Shown in pieces: positions 22,209-43,839 of a DNA stretch of 47,969 nucleotides. This DNA is from Phycisphaerales bacterium (lineage in GTDB: Bacteria > Planctomycetota > Phycisphaerae > Phycisphaerales > UBA1924): the NCBI GenBank assembly GCA_014379385.1, contig JACMLW010000162.1:1-47969 (forward strand), read 5' to 3'. Made by a program: the position numbers and the translations under genes. Numbering within the stretch: the first letter of the stretch is position 1; each line of letters begins with the position of its first letter. The notes under the pieces are model-generated. The model was not told where the DNA came from, made no database searches, and saw nothing but the letters and a program-made list of their open reading frames with translations.

Positions 22209-22523
22209 ATGGCTGACGACGAAGCGAAAAAGAAGAAAATACAGATCGGCGTGGCGGTCGGTTGCTTCGCCGCGGCAGGTCTGGCCTACTGGCTCATGAA
22301 CCGTGAGTCTGCCCCCGAGCCACCGCCGGCGCCAAGCGCGGCCGCAGAAGAACTCGCGACACAGCCGATCGACCCGGCGAAGCGGGCCGAAGAGCCTGAG
22401 GTGACCATCGGGTTGCCCGCGAGCGGGAATCGGGCACTCGACCCGGATTACGAGCAGGAACTTGAGGAGGACATGCCCGAAGAGGACATGCCCGAGGACG
22501 AGGAACCCGAAGAGCCCCGGTAA
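22209..22523 (+). CDS. Small membrane protein with acidic repeat tail, unknown function
   Basis: A 104-residue protein. A Lys-rich start (AKKKKIQ) is followed by one membrane helix (residues about 11-30, ending YWLMN) and a Pro/Glu-rich outer region. The tail is strongly acidic with a repeated EEDMP unit; the DNA carries a 15-base tandem repeat (22467-22480 and 22482-22495). No domain is recognised. By the positive-inside rule the tail would be periplasmic. It lies 168 bases before the orphan pseudopilin on the same strand. The Shine-Dalgarno is weak, but the composition suits a real gene. Confidence 0.65.
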   Translation: MADDEAKKKKIQIGVAVGCFAAAGLAYWLMNRESAPEPPPAPSAAAEELATQPIDPAKRAEEPEVTIGLPASGNRALDPDYEQELEEDMPEEDMPEDEEPEEPR

Positions 22524-23709: not shown

Positions 23710-25878
23710 ATGTGCGGCATCGCCGGCATTCTGCGATTGAGCCCAGCCGGTGCGTCCGTTAGTTCGGGGATCCGCGCCGAACTTGACTTCCCGGCGCCGT
23801 TCCTCGCATCACTTGACTCGGCCATCAAACATCGCGGCCCCGACGGCAGCGGCCAGTTCGCCGACTCGATCCCGGGGGTTCCGCCGCTCCGCGGCGGATT
23901 GCCCACTCAACCCGTCCATACACGAGGGGCTCATTCCGAATCCGCATCCGTAGTTGACGTCGTCCTCCTCCACCGTCGGCTCAGCATCATCGATCACGAC
24001 GGCGGCGCCCAGCCAATGATCGTCGGCGACGGCCCCGATGACCGCACCGCCGTCATCTTCAACGGCTGCATCTACAACCACCGCGAACTCAGACGCGAGC
24101 TCACCGCCCTCGGCGACTCCTTCACATCCGACCACAGCGACACCGAGGTTATCGTCCGCGGCTGGCGACGCTGGCGCGACGACCTGTGGACCCGACTCGA
24201 GGGCATGTTCGCCGTCGCGCTCTGGGACCGCCGCACCGCCACCCTTCGCCTCGCGCGCGACCAGTTCGGCGAGAAGCCGCTTTACTACCTCGAATCGCGC
24301 GACGAGCCTTCGCGCCAAGTCGCATTCTCGAGCGTCCCGCTCGCGTCGCCGTCCAGCCCCAAACCCGCATCACTCGCCGCGTGGCTCCGCTTCGGCGCCG
24401 CTACCTCGCCGCCAAGTAACTGGCTCTCTCTTCGCCCCGGCGAGCTGCTCGTATTCGGCGATGCCAAGCCCAGTGCCGTGGGCTGGGGGGGCAGCCCGCG
24501 CGGCCCTTCTCAGGGTTCATCCTCGTCGCGAGCCGCGTTCCGTGTGCCGCTGGCCGCAACGATCGCCTTCGGTCTCCTCAACTCAAGCACCCGCGCCACA
24601 CCACCTCCCCGCGATTACCCCCTTGCCCCGGAAGAAGTGGAATCGCTCCTCCGCCGCGCCGTCGAGCGGAGGCTCGAGGCCGACGTGCCTCTGGGCGCGT
24701 TCCTCTCCGGCGGCGTCGATTCATCTCTCGTCTCGCTCTTCGCCCGGCGCGCCCTCGGCTCGCTCGACACCTTCACCGTCGCAATGCCCGATCCGCGCTA
24801 CGACGAGTCAGCCTTTGCCGCGGCCGCCGCGCAGGCAATCGGCTCGCGCCACCACACGCTCGACTGCAACGCGCATCCCGCCGACGACCTGGTTCACCTC
24901 ATCCGCCAGATCAATCTCCCCTTCGGGGACAGCTCACTCCTGCCCGCCTACTGGGTGAGCCGCGCGGCCCGCGCGCACGTCAAAGTCGCGCTCAGCGGCG
25001 ATGGCGGCGACGAACTCTTCGCGGGGTACAACCGCTACTACGCACTCCCGTGGCTCGCGCGCTTGCGACCCCTCGGTCCCCTCGCGCCCGCCCTCGCCGC
25101 GCTCTTCCCAACATCGAACCCCCGCTCGACCTCTTCGCGAGCCGCGCGTCTCCTCCACGCCGCGGTCCACCACGGCTACTTCGACCTCGTCTCGATCTTC
25201 CCGCGCGCCACGCTGCCCCCCGAACTCCGCGCGCACGCCCCAACCGATGACAACGACCGCGCATCGCCCGCCGATCAGCCCCCGCGCTCTATCGCCGCCG
25301 CCATCTGGCACGACCTCGCGCACTACCTCCCCGCGGACCTGCTCCGCAAGACCGACGCCGCGTCGATGTCCTGCGCCCTCGAGGTCCGCTGCCCGTTCCT
25401 CGATACAGACCTCGCCCGTGCCGCCCTCTCCGCCACGATCGAATCGCTCACGCCCCGCGCTGAGCGCAAAGGGCTGCTCAAGGCCGTAGCCCGCCGCCAC
25501 TTCCCCTCGTTCATCGTCGATCGCCGCAAGATGGGCTTCGCGATCCCCATCGGCGAGTGGTTCCGCACCGACTTCGGATCGATGCGCACGCTCCTGCTCG
25601 ACCGGTTCCGCGGCGCCGAGCCCTTCGGCCCGCCCTCGCTCGGCATCGATATCGATCGTTCGTTCACCGAGCGGCTCATCCGCGAGCACGACGCGGCGGG
25701 CGGCAACAGCACCAACCCGTGGAAGGGTCGCGACCACGGCCAGCGCCTCTACGCGCTGCTCGTGCTCTCCATCTGGGCCGAGCACGCGGGACGCGTACAC
25801 AGGATTGAGGCCTTCGCCGCTGCGCCTACCTCGCGGCATCCGGAGCCGGCACGTCCGTCTTCGTCTCCTGACCGATGA
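23710..25878 (+). CDS. asnB: Glutamine-hydrolysing asparagine synthetase
   Basis: A 722-residue cytosolic enzyme making asparagine from aspartate, ATP and glutamine. The ATG is followed directly by the Cys2 nucleophile (MCGIAGILRL). The amidotransferase half also shows HRGPDGSGQF, HRRLSIIDHDGGAQPM, FNGCIYNHRELR and DQFGEKPLYY. The synthetase half has the pyrophosphate loop FLSGGVDSSLV (Ser333) and ALSGDGGDELFAGYNRY. It is about 100 residues longer than many AsnB proteins. Visible extra segments are a loop of about 45 residues before HRRLSII and a Ser/Pro-rich stretch near residues 250-300. Its 3' end overlaps the convergent PD40 gene by 53 bases. AsnB-like enzymes also serve in polysaccharide clusters, but none is here. 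Confidence 0.93.
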   Translation: MCGIAGILRLSPAGASVSSGIRAELDFPAPFLASLDSAIKHRGPDGSGQFADSIPGVPPLRGGLPTQPVHTRGAHSESASVVDVVLLHRRLSIIDHDGGAQPMIVGDGPDDRTAVIFNGCIYNHRELRRELTALGDSFTSDHSDTEVIVRGWRRWRDDLWTRLEGMFAVALWDRRTATLRLARDQFGEKPLYYLESRDEPSRQVAFSSVPLASPSSPKPASLAAWLRFGAATSPPSNWLSLRPGELLVFGDAKPSAVGWGGSPRGPSQGSSSSRAAFRVPLAATIAFGLLNSSTRATPPPRDYPLAPEEVESLLRRAVERRLEADVPLGAFLSGGVDSSLVSLFARRALGSLDTFTVAMPDPRYDESAFAAAAAQAIGSRHHTLDCNAHPADDLVHLIRQINLPFGDSSLLPAYWVSRAARAHVKVALSGDGGDELFAGYNRYYALPWLARLRPLGPLAPALAALFPTSNPRSTSSRAARLLHAAVHHGYFDLVSIFPRATLPPELRAHAPTDDNDRASPADQPPRSIAAAIWHDLAHYLPADLLRKTDAASMSCALEVRCPFLDTDLARAALSATIESLTPRAERKGLLKAVARRHFPSFIVDRRKMGFAIPIGEWFRTDFGSMRTLLLDRFRGAEPFGPPSLGIDIDRSFTERLIREHDAAGGNSTNPWKGRDHGQRLYALLVLSIWAEHAGRVHRIEAFAAAPTSRHPEPARPSSSPDR

Positions 25879-27175
25879 GATTCTCGATCCCTCCCGGCAC
25901 CGCCCGCGCAATCCACACCTGGCTCGAGGGGCGCGCCCCCTCATCCGTGTTGCGCTGCGCCGTCCACATCATCAGCGAGCCATCGTCGCTGAACACCGGC
26001 AGCACGTCGGCCCCGCCCGACTGGGTCACGCGCGCGCGCCGCAGCTCGGCCGCATTCTTCACCGCAGGGTCCACCTCGACCGCGAACACCTCGTAGTTCT
26101 GGTGCCCCATCTCGCTCGAGCCGTACACCAGGAACTTCCCCGACGGGTGCCAGTACGGCGCCCAGTTCACCGCTGAGTTGTCCGTGATCTGCAGCTCCCG
26201 CTCGATCCCGGTGATCGCTCCTGCCTCGTTGAACTTCAGCTCCGCGATGAACAGTTGCAGCAGGTCGTCGCCGCGCCGGTCCGACCGGTAGCAGATCCAC
26301 TTCCCATCCGGCGAGAAGAAGGGGCCCCCGTCGTACCCGCTCGCCTCCACCAGCGGCACATGCACCTCCCGCAACGTGTCGTACACGAAGAGATCCGCAT
26401 CGGGCCGGTCGTGCTCGTCCTTGGCCTCGCGCACATGCGCGTACAGCACATACCGACCGTCAGCGCTGTACGAGCACTCCGCGTCGTATTGCGGACGCGA
26501 GATCAGCACCTCGGGCGCCCCGAACCTCAGCGGCGCCACCTTGAAACCGGTGCATAGCAACACCTCGATCGACGCATCCTCCTTCGTCCCCGTGCGCTCC
26601 ACCTTCTCGGCCGCCGCCTGGCGGACTCTCACGATCTCCATCTCCGCCGGGAACATCCACACGTACTTGCGCGCCCCAACCTGGAAACCCGACTTCTGCT
26701 GGTCGCTCGGGCGCGTGAGCGTCGAGCCGAACAGCACCTCCCCCCGCGTCGGATGGAACCACCCGCACGTGTTCGCCGACCCCTCCGGGCTGATCCGCAC
26801 CGGATCCCCCGTCCCCGTGATATTCCCCTCCCCGTCCCGCACCAGCGGGGCCACATACATCGAATAGAACGAGTCCGGCTCTGCTCCCTCCACAGGCACC
26901 GGCACCGCCTGGAACACAATCCACTGCGGCGGGCTCTGGTGATCGAAGTACGCCTCGCCCGCCTTCACGAATCGCTCGCGCAGAGTCACCTGCACATGCC
27001 CCTCGAGCACGCCCGATTCCGCCGCCCGCCAGTCCACCGCTCGCTCTGATCCCGCCGCGGGAGTCGGCGCCGGAGGCCGCAAATGTTCCTCGCCCGCGTC
27101 CCGCCCCCGCGGTCCATCGGCCAACCCCATCACCGAAGCGCTCAACACAAGCCCGCCCACAAGTCCTGCCACCAT
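25826..27175 (-). CDS. Exported TolB-like PD40 beta-propeller protein
   Basis: A 449-residue protein starting MVAGLVGGLVLSASVMG, a signal peptide. GAGGG lies about six bases before the ATG. The body carries PD40/TolB-type propeller repeats, visible as YSADGRYVLYAHV, FFSPDGKWICYRSDR, WHPSGKFLVYGS and FSDDGSLMMWTAQ. TolB-like propellers work in the periplasm and bind peptides or envelope partners. It is the last gene of a minus-strand trio behind a TonB-like protein and an unknown secreted protein (37 bases from the latter), which suggests an envelope function. Its 3' end overlaps asnB by 53 bases on the opposite strand. Confidence 0.85.
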   Translation of the reverse strand: MVAGLVGGLVLSASVMGLADGPRGRDAGEEHLRPPAPTPAAGSERAVDWRAAESGVLEGHVQVTLRERFVKAGEAYFDHQSPPQWIVFQAVPVPVEGAEPDSFYSMYVAPLVRDGEGNITGTGDPVRISPEGSANTCGWFHPTRGEVLFGSTLTRPSDQQKSGFQVGARKYVWMFPAEMEIVRVRQAAAEKVERTGTKEDASIEVLLCTGFKVAPLRFGAPEVLISRPQYDAECSYSADGRYVLYAHVREAKDEHDRPDADLFVYDTLREVHVPLVEASGYDGGPFFSPDGKWICYRSDRRGDDLLQLFIAELKFNEAGAITGIERELQITDNSAVNWAPYWHPSGKFLVYGSSEMGHQNYEVFAVEVDPAVKNAAELRRARVTQSGGADVLPVFSDDGSLMMWTAQRNTDEGARPSSQVWIARAVPGGIENLIGQETKTDVPAPDAAR

Positions 27176-27212
27176 GACGGTCCCTCGTTCTGAGAATCCT
27201 TCCCATCCCTGT

Positions 27213-27920
27213 TCACCTGAGCGTGCGAACAGTAGCCGGTCGTGCCGCGGCCGCCAAAAGCTCGCTTGTCCGCTGCGCCCGGTATCGCTCGTCGCGCATC
27301 ACGTGCGGCGGTGGTGCCCCCTCTGTTCCTCCGCGCGCGCCAGACATGGCCCCGGTTGGATTCGGGTCCGACTCAGACACCTGCAGCTCGGCCCGCATCG
27401 CCTCGGGCACGGCGGCGCTCATGCTGTCTCCACCCGAGCGCAGCGACACCGACAGGTCCATCAGGTTCTCGGAGGCGGGATGGCCGGGAGCGCCGGAAAG
27501 AGATGATCCCGCATCATCCTCCACCGGCCCATTGCCTATATAGAAAATCGTTCCCGGCGGCACCTGCGCCTGCGCCCCATCACGCGTGGTTGAGTACAGC
27601 GACCGATCGAAGACCGCCGTCAGGCCGCCTGATTTGCGTGCAAACCCGCCGCGACGCAGCCCGAACGCCCCCGGGGGGAGCCTGTACACCGATCCAAACC
27701 CAGTCGGCACGCGCATATCTACGCTCATCTCGCGCCGGATCACGCTCTGCGGGCCCACATCTTCCACCCCCTGCTCCACGCGCCGCAGCCCCGTCGGATC
27801 GGGGCTCGCCCGCTCCCCTCCTTGCGACCCCACCTGCGCCAGAGCCATCGGCGCCCACAGCAGCGATGCGCCCACTGCGAAAACCAGCCTTTGATTTCTC
27901 ATCGCGCATCGCCGGCTCAT
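27213..27920 (-). CDS. Secreted protein of unknown function in the TonB/PD40 cluster
   Basis: A 235-residue protein. The start ATG (27920) overlaps the TGA of the TonB-like gene as ATGA, suggesting translational coupling; an internal ATG at 27902 (MRNQRLVFAVGASLLW) also gives a good signal peptide, cleaved near MALAQ. The mature part is Gly/Arg/Ser-rich. A short folded-looking segment (RVPTGFGSVYRLPPGAFGLRR, about residues 70-90) is followed by VPPGTIFYIGNGP. The C-terminal region is charged (VMRDERYRAQRTSELLAAA). I do not recognise the family. The position between TonB-like and PD40 proteins implies a shared periplasmic job. Confidence 0.75.
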   Translation of the reverse strand: MSRRCAMRNQRLVFAVGASLLWAPMALAQVGSQGGERASPDPTGLRRVEQGVEDVGPQSVIRREMSVDMRVPTGFGSVYRLPPGAFGLRRGGFARKSGGLTAVFDRSLYSTTRDGAQAQVPPGTIFYIGNGPVEDDAGSSLSGAPGHPASENLMDLSVSLRSGGDSMSAAVPEAMRAELQVSESDPNPTGAMSGARGGTEGAPPPHVMRDERYRAQRTSELLAAAARPATVRTLR

Positions 27921-29308
27921 CGCAGCACGATCCGTACCCGGATGCTCAGCCCGGCGGTCGGATCATCGGGCAATCTGGCCAGCGCTTCCCCTTTCGCGGT
28001 CCATAGGTACACGGCATTCAGCACCGGTTCATCGACATCCTTGTACCCCGATCTCACCAAAAACACCGCCGACACCACCTTCCCCCGCCGATCGAACTTC
28101 AGCCGGAGCTCCGGGTTCCGCGGCGCGGCCGTCAGCCGCGTGAACTTGCTGAACTCCGGCCGCTTCGTCCGTATGTCCAGCCCCTGGCCCGCCGCCGGCT
28201 TTCCCGGCCTGATCTCAATCGTCGCCTCGGTTGACGTCGCGTCCGATTCGCGGTCACTCTCGATCGCCTCGCGCCCCATATTGCCACCGGGCGCCGCCGC
28301 GTTCGCTGCCCCCGGCCGCGGGGCAATCGGCTCGCGCTCTGCCCTCGCAGCTTCCCCCGTGGGTCCGGCGTCCCCAGTATTTCGAGTCTCCTCGGCAGCA
28401 TCGTGAAGCCCGGGTTCCTCTGCGTCATTCGAGGTCAACTCTGCTGGTTCGTCTTGTTCAGCCTCCCCCTCAACCACAAACGCGGCGCTCAGCCGCGCTG
28501 TGCGATCATCGCCCACGCCGGTCTCAATCCCAGCCGGGCGCGCCAGTTCCACCCGCTCCTCGATCGCCAGGCCCTCGGCAGTCTCGTCCTTGGCTTGCGC
28601 GCCATCCCCTTCTGTCGGCTGTTCCGCCACGCCGTTCGGCGAGCCCTCCGCACCCGCGGATTTCGCCGCCACCGCCCTTGGCTCTCGCTCAACCTCCGCC
28701 TCCGTGATCGGCGGACCAACCGGCGCCCAAGTCTCCGTCATCTCCTCGACCAACTCAGGCGTGTTCGCCGCGGCGTTCTCGCTGGAGGGCCGCCTCGCCT
28801 CCAGCTCGTTTGGCGGCAAGATTGATTCCAGTGCAGGCGGTACGGCTGGGCCCCCAGCCACAGCCGGTGGCCCCGGCTTTCCTGGCGAGGGATCGAGCTC
28901 CGGCTGATTGGTGGTCGAGAGCGACGCGAAGTGTTCGGTCGGCTCGGCGAACCCAAGCCATGCCGGCACGTCATGCTCTGACTCCGCAATTCCCAGTCTA
29001 AAAAGCGGGTCCGGTTGCGGTGGCTCAGGCGGTAAGGGAGTCGGTTTCTGTTCAGACGGTGGAGTTGGTGGGGGAGGTGAAGTGGGCGGGAAGAGCGAAG
29101 GCGGTGGCGCCAAGTCCGCCGGATCAACCAGCGCGAGCGTCATCCCACCCGCATCCGATGCCACGGAAGGCGTCCACTCCGGCCTGCCCGGTTCCGGGCT
29201 ACGCTCCACCGGCATGGCGCGCATCGCCACCCCGACGCCCACATGCGCCATCGGGCTGACAACCATCGCCAGGCCCCAGACCCAGTACCTTCGCCCGCAA
29301 CGATGCAT
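27917..29308 (-). CDS. TonB-like energy-transducer protein
   Basis: A 463-residue protein started at ATG 29308 (MHRCGRRYW); the frame to 29341 uses TTG. An N-terminal helix (WGLAMVVSPMAHVGVGV) anchors it in the inner membrane. A very long Pro/Glu-rich spacer (about residues 50-370), including PPTSPPPPTPPSEQKPTPLP, would cross the periplasm. The last 80 residues form a TonB-C-like domain (LRLKFDRRGKVVSAVFLVRS and ILNAVYLW-like helices). TonB proteins transmit proton-motive energy from ExbB/ExbD to outer-membrane receptors. No exbB, exbD or receptor gene is adjacent. The SMVXF-like membrane His of true TonB is not clear. It is the first gene of the trio and is divergent from tlpA-like. Confidence 0.75.
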   Translation of the reverse strand: MHRCGRRYWVWGLAMVVSPMAHVGVGVAMRAMPVERSPEPGRPEWTPSVASDAGGMTLALVDPADLAPPPSLFPPTSPPPPTPPSEQKPTPLPPEPPQPDPLFRLGIAESEHDVPAWLGFAEPTEHFASLSTTNQPELDPSPGKPGPPAVAGGPAVPPALESILPPNELEARRPSSENAAANTPELVEEMTETWAPVGPPITEAEVEREPRAVAAKSAGAEGSPNGVAEQPTEGDGAQAKDETAEGLAIEERVELARPAGIETGVGDDRTARLSAAFVVEGEAEQDEPAELTSNDAEEPGLHDAAEETRNTGDAGPTGEAARAEREPIAPRPGAANAAAPGGNMGREAIESDRESDATSTEATIEIRPGKPAAGQGLDIRTKRPEFSKFTRLTAAPRNPELRLKFDRRGKVVSAVFLVRSGYKDVDEPVLNAVYLWTAKGEALARLPDDPTAGLSIRVRIVLR

Positions 29309-29378
29309 CTCATAAACTGTACGCTTCCCTTGCGGGGCCAACCGGCTCCGCTTCCATTTCGACCCTCAGGAGATCTCG

Positions 29379-30542
29379 ATGTCTAGGCACCTGTTCTCGC
29401 TCTCGGCCGCGCTCCTCGCCGCGGCTCCTATCTTTGCCCAACCCGCGGACAAGCCCGCTGCCCCAAAGCCGGATTCCGTCCCCGCCATGAAGATCCAGCC
29501 GGTCGCGCCGGACAAGTCAGAGAAGCCGGCCATCACGCTGGTCATCGGCGACAAGGCCCCCGCCCTGACCGTGGACACCTGGGTCAAGGGCGAGCCCGTC
29601 ACCGGCTTTGAGAAGGGCAAGGTCTACGTGGTCGAGTTCTGGGCCACCTGGTGCGGGCCCTGCATCCGCAGCATGCCGCACATCTCCGAGATGCAGCGCG
29701 ACCTCAAGGACAAGGGCGTCACCATCATCGGGACGAACATCTGGGAGCGCGAGTACAACGACGAGACCCTTCCCACGATCAAGAAGTTCGTTGAGGGCCA
29801 GGGCGAGAAGATGGCCTACACCGTTGCTTACGACGGCCCCTCAAAGACCATGGACAAGACGTGGATGCGCGCCGCCGGCCAGAACGGGATTCCCTCCGCC
29901 TTCATCGTGAACAAGGAAGGCACTATCGCCTGGATCGGCCATCCCGGCGTCCCCGCGTTCGAGGAGATCCTCGGCAAGGTGGTCGAGGGCACGTTTACCG
30001 CTGAGGACGCCGCCAAGCGCAAGCAGTCCGACGCCGCGATGCGGGCCGCGAGCATGGAGATTCAGAAGGCGGTTCAGGAGAAGCGGTTCGAGGACGCCTT
30101 CAAGAAGATGGACGAGCTCTCCGCCTCCGATCCCGAGATGGCATCGAGCTTCGCCATGCAGCGCTTCCAGATCACGCTGATGCTTCAGAAGGACGAGCAG
30201 GCCGCGTACGCCTTCGCCCGCAAGGCCGCGGCCCAGCACTTCGGCAAGGACTCTCAGGCGCTCAACACGATCTCGTGGACGATCCTGGACACGCCCGGCC
30301 TTGAGCACCGCGACCACGACCTCGCGCTCGAACTGGCCATCAAGGCCGATGAACTCACCGGCCACAAGGACCCGATGATCATCGACACGCTCGCCCGCGC
30401 CCACTTTGAGAAGGGCAACAAGGCCAAGGCCATCGAGCTCCAGGAGAAGGCCGTGGCGCTGGCCGCGGATTCCGATGAGCAGCTTCAGAGCGAACTCAAG
30501 GGCCGCCTCGACGAATACAAGGCCGCCGCCGACAAAAAATAA
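29379..30542 (+). CDS. Exported TlpA-type thioredoxin with C-terminal helical domain
   Basis: A 387-residue protein. AGGAG lies six to seven bases before the ATG. A signal peptide (LFSLSAALLAAAPIFAQ) is followed by a Pro/Lys-rich linker. The thioredoxin domain has the redox motif WATWCGPC with Cys92 and Cys95, and the cis-Pro region NGIPSAFIV. Residues about 215-385 form alpha-helical, Lys/Glu-rich repeats resembling TPRs (ARAHFEKGNKAKAIELQEKA). It should act as a periplasmic disulfide reductase; the C-terminal part may bind its client. Lysine is almost always AAG, a codon bias suggesting high expression. A strong terminator follows. The gene diverges from the TonB-like gene across only 70 bases. 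Confidence 0.9.
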   Translation: MSRHLFSLSAALLAAAPIFAQPADKPAAPKPDSVPAMKIQPVAPDKSEKPAITLVIGDKAPALTVDTWVKGEPVTGFEKGKVYVVEFWATWCGPCIRSMPHISEMQRDLKDKGVTIIGTNIWEREYNDETLPTIKKFVEGQGEKMAYTVAYDGPSKTMDKTWMRAAGQNGIPSAFIVNKEGTIAWIGHPGVPAFEEILGKVVEGTFTAEDAAKRKQSDAAMRAASMEIQKAVQEKRFEDAFKKMDELSASDPEMASSFAMQRFQITLMLQKDEQAAYAFARKAAAQHFGKDSQALNTISWTILDTPGLEHRDHDLALELAIKADELTGHKDPMIIDTLARAHFEKGNKAKAIELQEKAVALAADSDEQLQSELKGRLDEYKAAADKK

Positions 30543-38822: not shown

Positions 38823-39116
38823 CTACTCGACGGTGTCGGAGCGGCTGACGCGGGCATCGGCGGGGGGTGCGGGGGTCTGGATCGTGGAGCTTCCGGTGTC
38901 GGCCGAGAGGATGGGCTTGTTCTTCGCCGCCGCGCGCCCGGACTCGGTTTCAATGTCGTCGTCGATGCCCTTGAGGCCCTTCTTAAACTCGACGATGCCG
39001 CGGCCCATACTTCGGCCGACTTCGGGGAGGCGGCGGCCGAAGAGGAGCAGGGCGATGCCGAGGATGATGAAACCCTCGAGCGGGCCGATGTTCTGGAACA
39101 GACCGAGCGTGAGCAT
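38823..39116 (-). CDS. tatA: Twin-arginine translocase subunit TatA/E
   Basis: A 97-residue inner-membrane protein forming the Tat protein-conducting assembly. AAGGAG at 39122-39127 is five bases before the ATG at 39116, deciding the start over the frame from 39209. The short N-terminal helix (EGFIILGIALLLFG) is followed by the hinge RRLPEVGRSMGRGIVEFKKG and a charged amphipathic helix, then a Ser/Pro/Thr-rich tail. Length and motif fit TatA better than TatB. It is a single gene in this window; tatC is not here. Confidence 0.93.
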   Translation of the reverse strand: MLTLGLFQNIGPLEGFIILGIALLLFGRRLPEVGRSMGRGIVEFKKGLKGIDDDIETESGRAAAKNKPILSADTGSSTIQTPAPPADARVSRSDTVE

Positions 39117-39264
39117 GCGAGCTCCTTGTGGTGTACGGGATGGCGAGGCGGCGAGCGAGGGATCGGGATCGTGCGGGGAAGGATAGAGGGGGCGCGGAGT
39201 CCGGACCAAGCGGAGCGGGCGGCGCCGAAGGGCTTGGGCTCAACGGCTGCGGGCGTTGAATATT

Positions 39265-39864
39265 TCAGGAATGCAGGACGGAGTAGACGCCGCGGGCGGC
39301 GATGTGAGCCGCGACCTCGATGCCGCCGGGGGAGAGCGAAAGACCGTCGTGGGCGATGGAGTGGTCGAGGTTGCGCTCGAGCGTGCTGTGTAGGTCGGCG
39401 ACGCCGATGTTAAGGGGGCCCATGAGGCCGACGGCGATCTGGTTGTACTGCGTGATGGTGCGGTTGAGGCGCACGGCGAGGTCGGCGGCGATGTTGTGAG
39501 CCGCGGCGAGGAGCGAGGGATACACGGGGGGTGATGGGATAAAGATGACTTGGCGGCCGCAGAAGCGCTGGAGGTGAAGGGCGGCGTCGCCGAGGTCGCG
39601 CTCGTAGTTGCTGAAGGAGGTGGGCTCGGCCTCAAGGGAGGCGATCGTGTGCTCGATGGCGTGGGGACCGGCGGCGAAGAGGGCGATATCGGGCTGGTAC
39701 TGCGCGATGAGATGTTCGACGAGGGCGGCGAGCGAGGCGGCGTCGCCGGTTGAGTGCGGCGGGGCGACGAGCGAGATCTGGTCGGCGGCGAGGAGTTCGG
39801 CGAGGCGGGCGCGATAGGTGAGGTGGAAGGAATCGCCGATGTGGAGCACGGTGCCGCGGTGCAT
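39265..39864 (-). CDS. SGNH/GDSL-hydrolase-like protein with altered catalytic block
   Basis: A 199-residue protein. The ATG at 39864 gives MHRGTVLHIGDSFHLTYR; the longer frame from 40209 is antisense to folD and Arg-rich noise. GDSF near the N-terminus matches block I of SGNH hydrolases (nucleophile Ser). PDIALFAAGPHAIEH is a strand-helix like block III, but its Asn is absent. The C-terminal block V reads HDGLSLSPGG, where catalytic members have DxxHLSxxG, so the usual catalytic His is missing at that site. It may be a non-catalytic or differently wired member. It starts 38 bases from the end of folD on the same strand, so it may be co-transcribed. Confidence 0.65.
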   Translation of the reverse strand: MHRGTVLHIGDSFHLTYRARLAELLAADQISLVAPPHSTGDAASLAALVEHLIAQYQPDIALFAAGPHAIEHTIASLEAEPTSFSNYERDLGDAALHLQRFCGRQVIFIPSPPVYPSLLAAAHNIAADLAVRLNRTITQYNQIAVGLMGPLNIGVADLHSTLERNLDHSIAHDGLSLSPGGIEVAAHIAARGVYSVLHS

Positions 39865-39902
39865 GCGGGCAGAGTACCAGAGAGAGCGGGGAGAGTGGCG
39901 GC

Positions 39903-43230
<3,328 letters not shown>

Positions 43231-43305
43231 GGGGGGCGAGGTGGGGCGGGGCTTGGCGCGGTACGCTGGGCGGCGCGCCGAGGGTGCGAAAGGGACGCCT
43301 GGATC

Positions 43306-43839
43306 ATGCACAACATCGAGTTCAAGGCGGAGCTTCGGGATCTGGCGCTGGCGCGGCAGATCGCGATCTCGATCGGCGCGAAGTACACGGACACCGTCGA
43401 GCAGACCGACACGTACTACCGGTTGGCGGATGGGCGGCTGAAACGGCGCGAGGCGCGGCGGGCGAGCGCGGAGAAGGGTGTGGCGCAGGAGGTGGACATC
43501 GAGGTGATCCACTACCACCGCGTGAACACGGCGGCGATCCGTCCCAGCCGATTCAACGTGTACACCGCGGAGCAGGCGAGCGAGCGGTTCGGGGCGACCC
43601 CCGGGCCGGTGTGGGTTGTGGTGACGAAGCTGCGCGAGGTGTACCTGTACGAGGGCGTGCGGGTCCATCTTGACCAGGTGCTGAACCTGGGGACGTTTAT
43701 TGAGTTTGAGGCGCCGGTGCGGCCGGAGCAGGCGGTGTCGACCTGCCGCGAGATCGTGCAAAGACTGCGGGATGCGTTTCGACCGGCGATGGGGGAGCCG
43801 ATCAGCACCAGCTACAGCGACCTATTGGCGGAGGAATAG
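43306..43839 (+). CDS. CYTH domain protein (class IV adenylate cyclase/triphosphatase fold)
   Basis: A 177-residue protein of the CYTH superfamily, whose members hydrolyse triphosphates (thiamine-PPP, PPPi) or make cAMP. The signature near the N-terminus is NIEFKAEL, where the canonical form ExExK has Glu first; here that position is Asn. Further pieces are DTYYRLADGRLKRREAR (Arg/Lys-rich strands) and YEGVRVHLDQVLNLGTFIEFE, a substrate-binding strand set. The family and length (about 170) fit CyaB-like proteins. No cyclase partner is adjacent. Which reaction it does is not decidable. It converges with the receiver gene, with nine bases between the stops. Confidence 0.8.
   Translation: MHNIEFKAELRDLALARQIAISIGAKYTDTVEQTDTYYRLADGRLKRREARRASAEKGVAQEVDIEVIHYHRVNTAAIRPSRFNVYTAEQASERFGATPGPVWVVVTKLREVYLYEGVRVHLDQVLNLGTFIEFEAPVRPEQAVSTCREIVQRLRDAFRPAMGEPISTSYSDLLAEE

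Follow-up and report, generated by a model that had tools for sequence, protein, structure and literature searches.

The locus lies in a contig of 47,969 nucleotides from a draft genome of a Phycisphaerales bacterium (GenBank assembly GCA_014379385.1, contig JACMLW010000162.1). The whole contig (C227), which is the stretch of DNA that was analysed, will be hereafter referred to as the window, and the genome as G000. The host assembly is a 3.12-Mb draft in 227 contigs and is 92.75% complete. Three consecutive genes on the minus strand encode a TonB-like protein (P0001), a middle protein, which we call MID (P0002), and a protein with PD40 propeller repeats (P0003) (Table 1). The stop codon of the TonB-like gene and the start codon of MID overlap as ATGA at 27917-27920, and 37 bases (27176-27212) separate the MID stop, which ends at 27213, from the PD40 start at 27175. 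The original prediction had described the three genes in just this way. An alternative start of the TonB-like gene is a TTG at 29341. Neither promoter-like sites nor minus-strand terminator-like sites were found in 25700-29500, which is a weak test. All three products have hydrophobic N-terminal stretches as judged by eye, consistent with export or membrane anchoring, and this agrees with the earlier expectation that they are periplasmic or membrane-anchored.

Table 1 Features of the locus, in coordinates of the window.
Feature	Position	Strand	Description or basis
TonB-like protein P0001, 463 aa	27917..29308	-	Membrane helix, Pro/Glu/Ala-rich linker, TonB-type C-terminal domain
Ser18-x3-His22 in the P0001 membrane helix, TonB/TolA motor-contact signature	29243..29257	-	Alignment of members
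Conserved linker stretch of P0001, EHDVPAWLGFAEPTEHFAS, with W[LI]G motif, possible motor box	28922..28978	-	Member pattern
TonB-type C-terminal domain of P0001, last 115 residues	27920..28264	-	Alignment, model, Foldseek
MID P0002, 235 aa: hydrophobic start, beta core, linker, C-terminal helix motif	27213..27920	-	
MID beta core, residues 76-130, GF..VY...F.R..G...AVF.RS.Y...PPGT.F.IG	27531..27695	-	Alignment; pLDDT by blocks 75-93
MID C-terminal helix motif, residues 207-226, family consensus W.DE.YR..RV..LL	27243..27302	-	Alignment, model
Thioredoxin-like/TPR protein, divergent, recurrent neighbour of TonB-like genes	29379..30542	+	Redoxin 5.2e-17
PD40 propeller protein P0003, 449 aa	25826..27175	-	Outside the conserved unit; in-line neighbour in G000 only

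The first protein is TonB in its predicted architecture. Its single N-terminal membrane helix, RRYWVWGLAMVVSPMAHVGVGVAMRAM, contains the Ser-x3-His signature. A clear membrane helix is present in 42 of the 45 TonB-like members, and 41 of these 42 have the histidine and 35 the complete S-x3-H; the sole member with a clear helix that lacks the histidine (L098) was translated from a frame that had been extended too far upstream. The W[LI]G pattern is found in 26 of the 45 members, in one of which (L175) it lies inside the membrane helix. By analogy with PMC12204202, this linker stretch may be a motor box. For the C-terminal domain, an alignment of 40 of the 45 members was used, with L107, L117, L169, L171 and L184 left out. 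The commonest Pfam families among these 40 at E<=1 are TonB_2 (20/40) and TonB_C (12/40). The domain of P0001 itself misses the Pfam cut-off (E 0.018, 15.6 vs 22 bits). When the C-terminal profile of the members was compared with PDB sequences at E<=1, all 15 matches were to TonB, HasB or TolA, with a best E of 0.01. The domain was modelled with a pLDDT of 86.0, and the first 18 rows of a Foldseek search with this model are TonB, TolA, HasB or FusB (best E 1.4e-3, probability 1.00, TMt 0.70), none of them under E 0.001. The helix signature, the profiles and the Foldseek matches thus bear out the name TonB-like that was given to the protein at first sight.

The original prediction recognised no family for the middle protein. 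None was found here either: no Pfam family listed is common to two of 26 MID members, the best NCBIfam match has an E of 0.11, and no PDB sequence matches at E<=5. With P0002 as the single query, 39 of 61 genomes, G000 among them, have a match at E<=1. A profile made from 26 sequences extends this to 130 of the 163 genomes in the family at E<=1e-3, again including G000, so that the middle frame is conserved. In a sample of the phylum the profile matches 25 of 392 genomes, all within the order of G000, six of them weakly (E 3e-6 to 7e-4). This sample was sorted by kinship; 31 of its genomes were read as belonging to the order, and among the other 361, with 347 of them outside the listed rows, there is no match. 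MID is, on sequence evidence, a genuine protein family restricted to the order and not a chance open reading frame. P0002 was aligned with 25 of 26 members, L116 being left out. In this alignment a short hydrophobic stretch at the N-terminus is followed by a conserved core of about 55 residues, a variable linker and a conserved tail. Residues F104, Y109 and P121 are invariant across the 26 aligned sequences. The AlphaFold model has a mean pLDDT of 66.8; the values are close to 90 in the core and in the tail helix (211-226), and most of the linker stays under 50. Structure prediction thus gave a confident core and last helix, and fold searches with this partly confident model gave nothing usable (Foldseek best E 2.0, VIA-align best Z 2.8). 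Since the model is confident only in these two parts, MID may still have a known fold.

Both genes are present in 30 of 36 relatives of the same family (TonB-like at E<=1e-4, MID by profile). In 23 of these 30, MID lies behind the TonB-like gene, in line and on one strand, in agreement with the tight coupling first proposed for the two genes. The 23 include three genomes (G001, G022, G026) with one Rrf2-like gene between the two and one (G023) that has the MID tail only. In G027 the pair fits across a contig break, and in the remaining six (G009, G011, G012, G019, G035, G036) the genes are apart. They are also apart in all nine genomes from other families of the order that have both (G037, G040, G041, G044, G046, G048, G049, G054, G058). 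A TonB-like gene occurs with no MID in G003 and G017, and MID with no detected TonB-like protein in G021 and G034.

We then scanned 84 stretches of DNA selected for matches to TonB-like, MID, PD40 or ExbD, so that the following ratios are not rates in genomes. The TonB profile matches 63 stretches and the MID profile 50, and 41 have both in line. Of the 63 TonB-bearing stretches, 30, from several families of the order, have ExbD upstream of the TonB-like gene, and 27 have a thioredoxin-TPR gene on the strand opposite to it, at most 2.5 kb away. FloA is found behind MID in 23 of the 84 stretches. Many relatives in the family repeat, in parts, a recurrent layout of a GT2 glycosyltransferase, ExbD, the divergent thioredoxin-TPR gene, the TonB-like gene and MID, to which a BamE-like lipoprotein is added in some of them; the layout ends with FloA, NfeD and ClpP/NfeD-like genes in reverse orientation. 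Genes of the fetched loci were called by our own script, with rough starts, and the script missed MID in the window. The names Rrf2-like, RluA-like, CYTH-like, TatA-like, MotB-like and, for one gene of contig C83, TPR-like were assigned by eye. At the window locus the thioredoxin, TonB-like and MID genes are kept, and there is no ExbD, FloA or BamE-like match. The conserved unit, as judged from gene order, is the TonB-like gene with MID; the other companions are absent or distant in the genome of the window.

In the original prediction the TonB-like protein was described as lacking exbBD. This is correct for the window locus, but three ExbD and three MotA/ExbB matches are found elsewhere in G000, and ExbD adjoins the gene in many relatives as counted above. 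ExbB was not seen beside the TonB-like gene in the loci that were read. According to PMC12204202, tonB infrequently co-occurs with exbB-exbD, so that their absence beside the gene is by itself nothing unusual. Each of the 61 genomes has both the ExbD and the MotA/ExbB family, and a part of their places in these genomes was listed. One ExbD of G000 is on contig C83 and two are on C208, and MotA/ExbB matches are on C17, C83 and C225. By eye, the motor genes of C83 are accompanied by a 1069-aa TPR-like frame, in a layout that recalls the one described in PMC12204202 for vWA transducers of the PVC group, and the match on C225 adjoins a MotB-like frame. In a tree of ExbD proteins, 33 from TonB-like-bearing stretches stand on one side (100/97) and six others, including all three of G000, on the other, a division to be read with a warning of long branches. 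On this grouping no ExbD of the locus type was found in the G000 assembly, and the motor for G000 is therefore a guess. In G015, an assembly of 8 contigs that is 98% complete, ExbD and MotA/ExbB have two matches each. One listed ExbD and one MotA/ExbB adjoin on its contig C4, and a second ExbD was seen by eye in the same stretch. Since the TonB-like protein of G015 keeps Ser-x3-His, the C4 motor is the likely candidate there, and by extension the TonB-like protein of G000 would likewise use a motor encoded elsewhere.

The TonB-dependent receptors were followed by one profile, that of the Plug domain. Of the 61 genomes 23 have it, but within the family it is limited to 6 of 37, G000 included. 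In most of the family, therefore, the transducer probably serves something other than receptors. G000 has one Plug protein, on contig C100 (E 1.2e-18), so that ordinary receptor service is possible in this genome. P0001 could then be an ordinary TonB for this single receptor, with MID an unrelated exported protein that is co-transcribed by chance. It would fit that a search of G000 with P0001 as the only query gave no further copy at E<=1, and that a tonB gene distant from the motor genes is common according to PMC12204202. We regard this explanation as somewhat unlikely, because 28 of the 31 family genomes with no Plug match at E<=1e-5 retain the TonB-like gene (E<=1e-4), and because of the position of MID behind it in most relatives that have both. 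A TonB that is mostly without a receptor needs another client, for which MID is at present the best candidate.

MID could instead work mainly with the BamE-like lipoprotein to assemble the outer membrane, the neighbourhood of the TonB-like gene being secondary. A BamE-like gene lies behind MID in 10 of the 50 MID-bearing stretches, and two of these 10, L120 and L354, contain no TonB-like gene. The best Pfam family for all 10 genes is BamE/SmpA (PF04355), each below the cut-off, and no such gene was seen in the window. The TonB-like gene, however, is found by MID in 41 of the same 50 stretches, a set chosen for either gene, and in L183 and L352 (genus g24), where MID has lost its core, the surviving tail sits directly behind TonB. 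This makes a primary link with BamE quite unlikely.

The PD40 gene, by contrast with the pair, has no conserved place at this locus. The Pfam search of P0003 reports PD40 repeats only (8e-20). The gene is common in the family, with a match at E<=1e-90 in 107 of the 163 genomes. Its 80 named matches are mostly from Phycisphaerales or other planctomycete assemblies. An RluA-like neighbour, named by eye, was seen at 62 of 108 PD40 loci, many of which are short and among which some genomes are represented more than once (L204 and L286 appear to come from the same genome). Both PD40 (E<=1e-90) and MID are found in 79 of the 163 genomes, a number that leaves out genomes with a weaker or split PD40 gene (G014, G004 and others). 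The two genes are on different contigs in 66 of the 79, some of which may still have them as neighbours across contig ends, at least 35 kb apart in 11, about 0.7 kb apart and convergent in G137, and in line in G000 alone. The trio is therefore a local arrangement, and the proposal that it forms one distinct system was rejected: co-location in relatives holds for the TonB-like gene and MID and not for all three. The position of the PD40 gene is best read as a local rearrangement. In G114, G115 and G184 (L336-L338), whose PD40 proteins are among those most similar to P0003, the place occupied by PD40 in the window belongs to the BamE-like gene.

Because the PD40 side has no synteny support, it is possible, but very unlikely in our judgement, that a misassembly between 27176 and 27212 joins two unrelated regions and that the trio of the window is not real. 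The contig is only 48 kb of a draft in 227 pieces, the junction occurs in no other of the 79 genomes, and the PD40 side is neither supported nor contradicted by synteny. The junction nevertheless falls cleanly between two intact genes, and the FolD, LigA and CYTH-like genes of the window (39903-43839) were matched at most 7 kb from TonB-MID in L347 and L348, a synteny that supports the TonB side of the contig. A Tol-Pal-like system with the PD40 protein as TolB, in line with the envelope-maintenance idea of the original prediction, is highly improbable and largely refuted by synteny: the same-strand order with its short gap, the repeats and a partial match to the propeller of the TolB model TIGR02800 speak for it, but the score of 58.6 bits is far below the cut-off of 343.15, the TolB N-terminal domain is absent at E<=1, and PD40 is often found beside the RluA-like gene instead, so that P0003 was rejected as TolB.

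The reading that we favour, and to which we give an even chance, is that of a Ton-type force transducer across the envelope with MID as its dedicated exported partner, powering a process other than uptake through receptors. The TonB-like protein would sit in the inner membrane and transmit force as the Ton/Tol transducers do. By its Ser-x3-His helix it would dock on an ExbB/ExbD motor, presumably with the upstream ExbD in many relatives and with a motor encoded elsewhere in G000, and its TonB-type C-terminal domain would reach across the periplasm. MID may be the exported partner on which, or through which, the TonB-like protein acts, and the BamE-like lipoprotein could be a third partner in some relatives. 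That the pair serves something other than receptors is suggested because most genomes of the family show none; most likely it would power another outer-membrane or periplasmic process, for example the maintenance or assembly of the outer membrane.

Several known systems share parts of this arrangement. The TonB of the Ton system (PF03544/PF13103) has the same Ser-x3-His membrane helix, Pro-rich linker and C-terminal fold, whereas the protein described here comes from a family in which 31 of 37 genomes have no Plug match, is followed by a conserved partner gene, and in many relatives has ExbD next to it, with no ExbB seen beside it in the loci that were read. TolA of Tol-Pal, homologous to TonB, is also a motor-driven transducer that does not need a receptor, but TolB was not seen beside the gene, and the matches of both fold and profile point more to TonB than to TolA. 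No OmpA/Pal match was found among the 27 frames of the window scanned with Pfam. The vWA force transducers of the PVC group, as described in PMC12204202, share an SHLS-type helix and motor, an open client and planctomycete hosts, whereas the C-terminal domain here is of the TonB type and not vWA.

The TonB-type transducer itself represents a variant of a type already known. The MID family is undescribed as far as the searched libraries and literature reach; a literature search recognised no paper as treating the pair of TonB-like protein and MID. Ton and Tol-Pal are the two well-known uses of the ExbB/ExbD-type motor family. The pair could represent a third use of the Ton/Tol machinery in one Phycisphaerae-type order, neither receptor uptake nor Tol-Pal, which acts on MID, sometimes with a BamE-like lipoprotein, and which is perhaps an energised assembly or repair of the outer membrane; we consider this wider proposal unlikely, and put it forward tentatively. 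A family that is poor in receptors and keeps a TonB-type transducer with a conserved partner would provide a handle on other motor-driven processes, and on the upkeep of the outer membrane in planctomycetes.

The profile search of the family genomes with the middle protein, which in the window is encoded beside the TonB-like gene, gave tail-only matches in seven genomes of genus g24. In two of the fetched g24 stretches, L183 and L352, the part of the middle protein that persists behind the TonB-like gene consists of the linker and the DE.YR..RV motif; the beta core is missing. In genome G008 the middle protein has the C-terminal end RMRDGVVEDYWID; the BamE-like lipoprotein ends very similarly, in MRDGVVEKVWQD, and the resemblance would fit a fusion of the middle protein with a remnant of the BamE-like gene.

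Among the 79 family genomes that hold both the PD40 propeller and the middle protein, G137 is the only one, besides the genome of the window, in which the propeller gene lies close to the pair; in G137 the propeller and middle genes run towards each other, and the propeller gene still has its RluA-like neighbour. A gene named by eye as an Rrf2-like regulator is found behind the TonB-like gene or ahead of the middle gene in some relatives (L100, L112, L113, L176 and L185).

Coordinates of features in the window and in fetched stretches (L)
Feature	Position	Source
Region with propeller gene near the TonB-like/middle pair	L341:7167-10840	G137
Middle-protein tail behind TonB-like gene	L183:8427-8642	genus g24
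Middle-protein tail behind TonB-like gene	L352:7771-8013	genus g24
Middle protein of G008	L096:4344-5015	
Stretch without gene call	L158:5328-7984	G000 (genome of the window), contig C83
TatA-like, FolD, LigA, CYTH-like gene block	38823-43839	window
Small membrane-anchored frame, 104 aa, very acidic	22209-22523	window

The block of TatA-like, FolD, LigA and CYTH-like genes has counterparts in L347, at most 7 kb from the TonB-like and middle genes, and all of its members except the TatA-like one are also matched in L348. The small acidic frame had no Pfam match at E<=1 in the Pfam scan. On contig C83, about 2.6 kb without a called gene extend from the ExbD gene to the next called gene, and the cluster there, which comprises ExbD, TPR-like and ExbB genes, is reminiscent of the published vWA transducer loci of the PVC group (PMC12204202).
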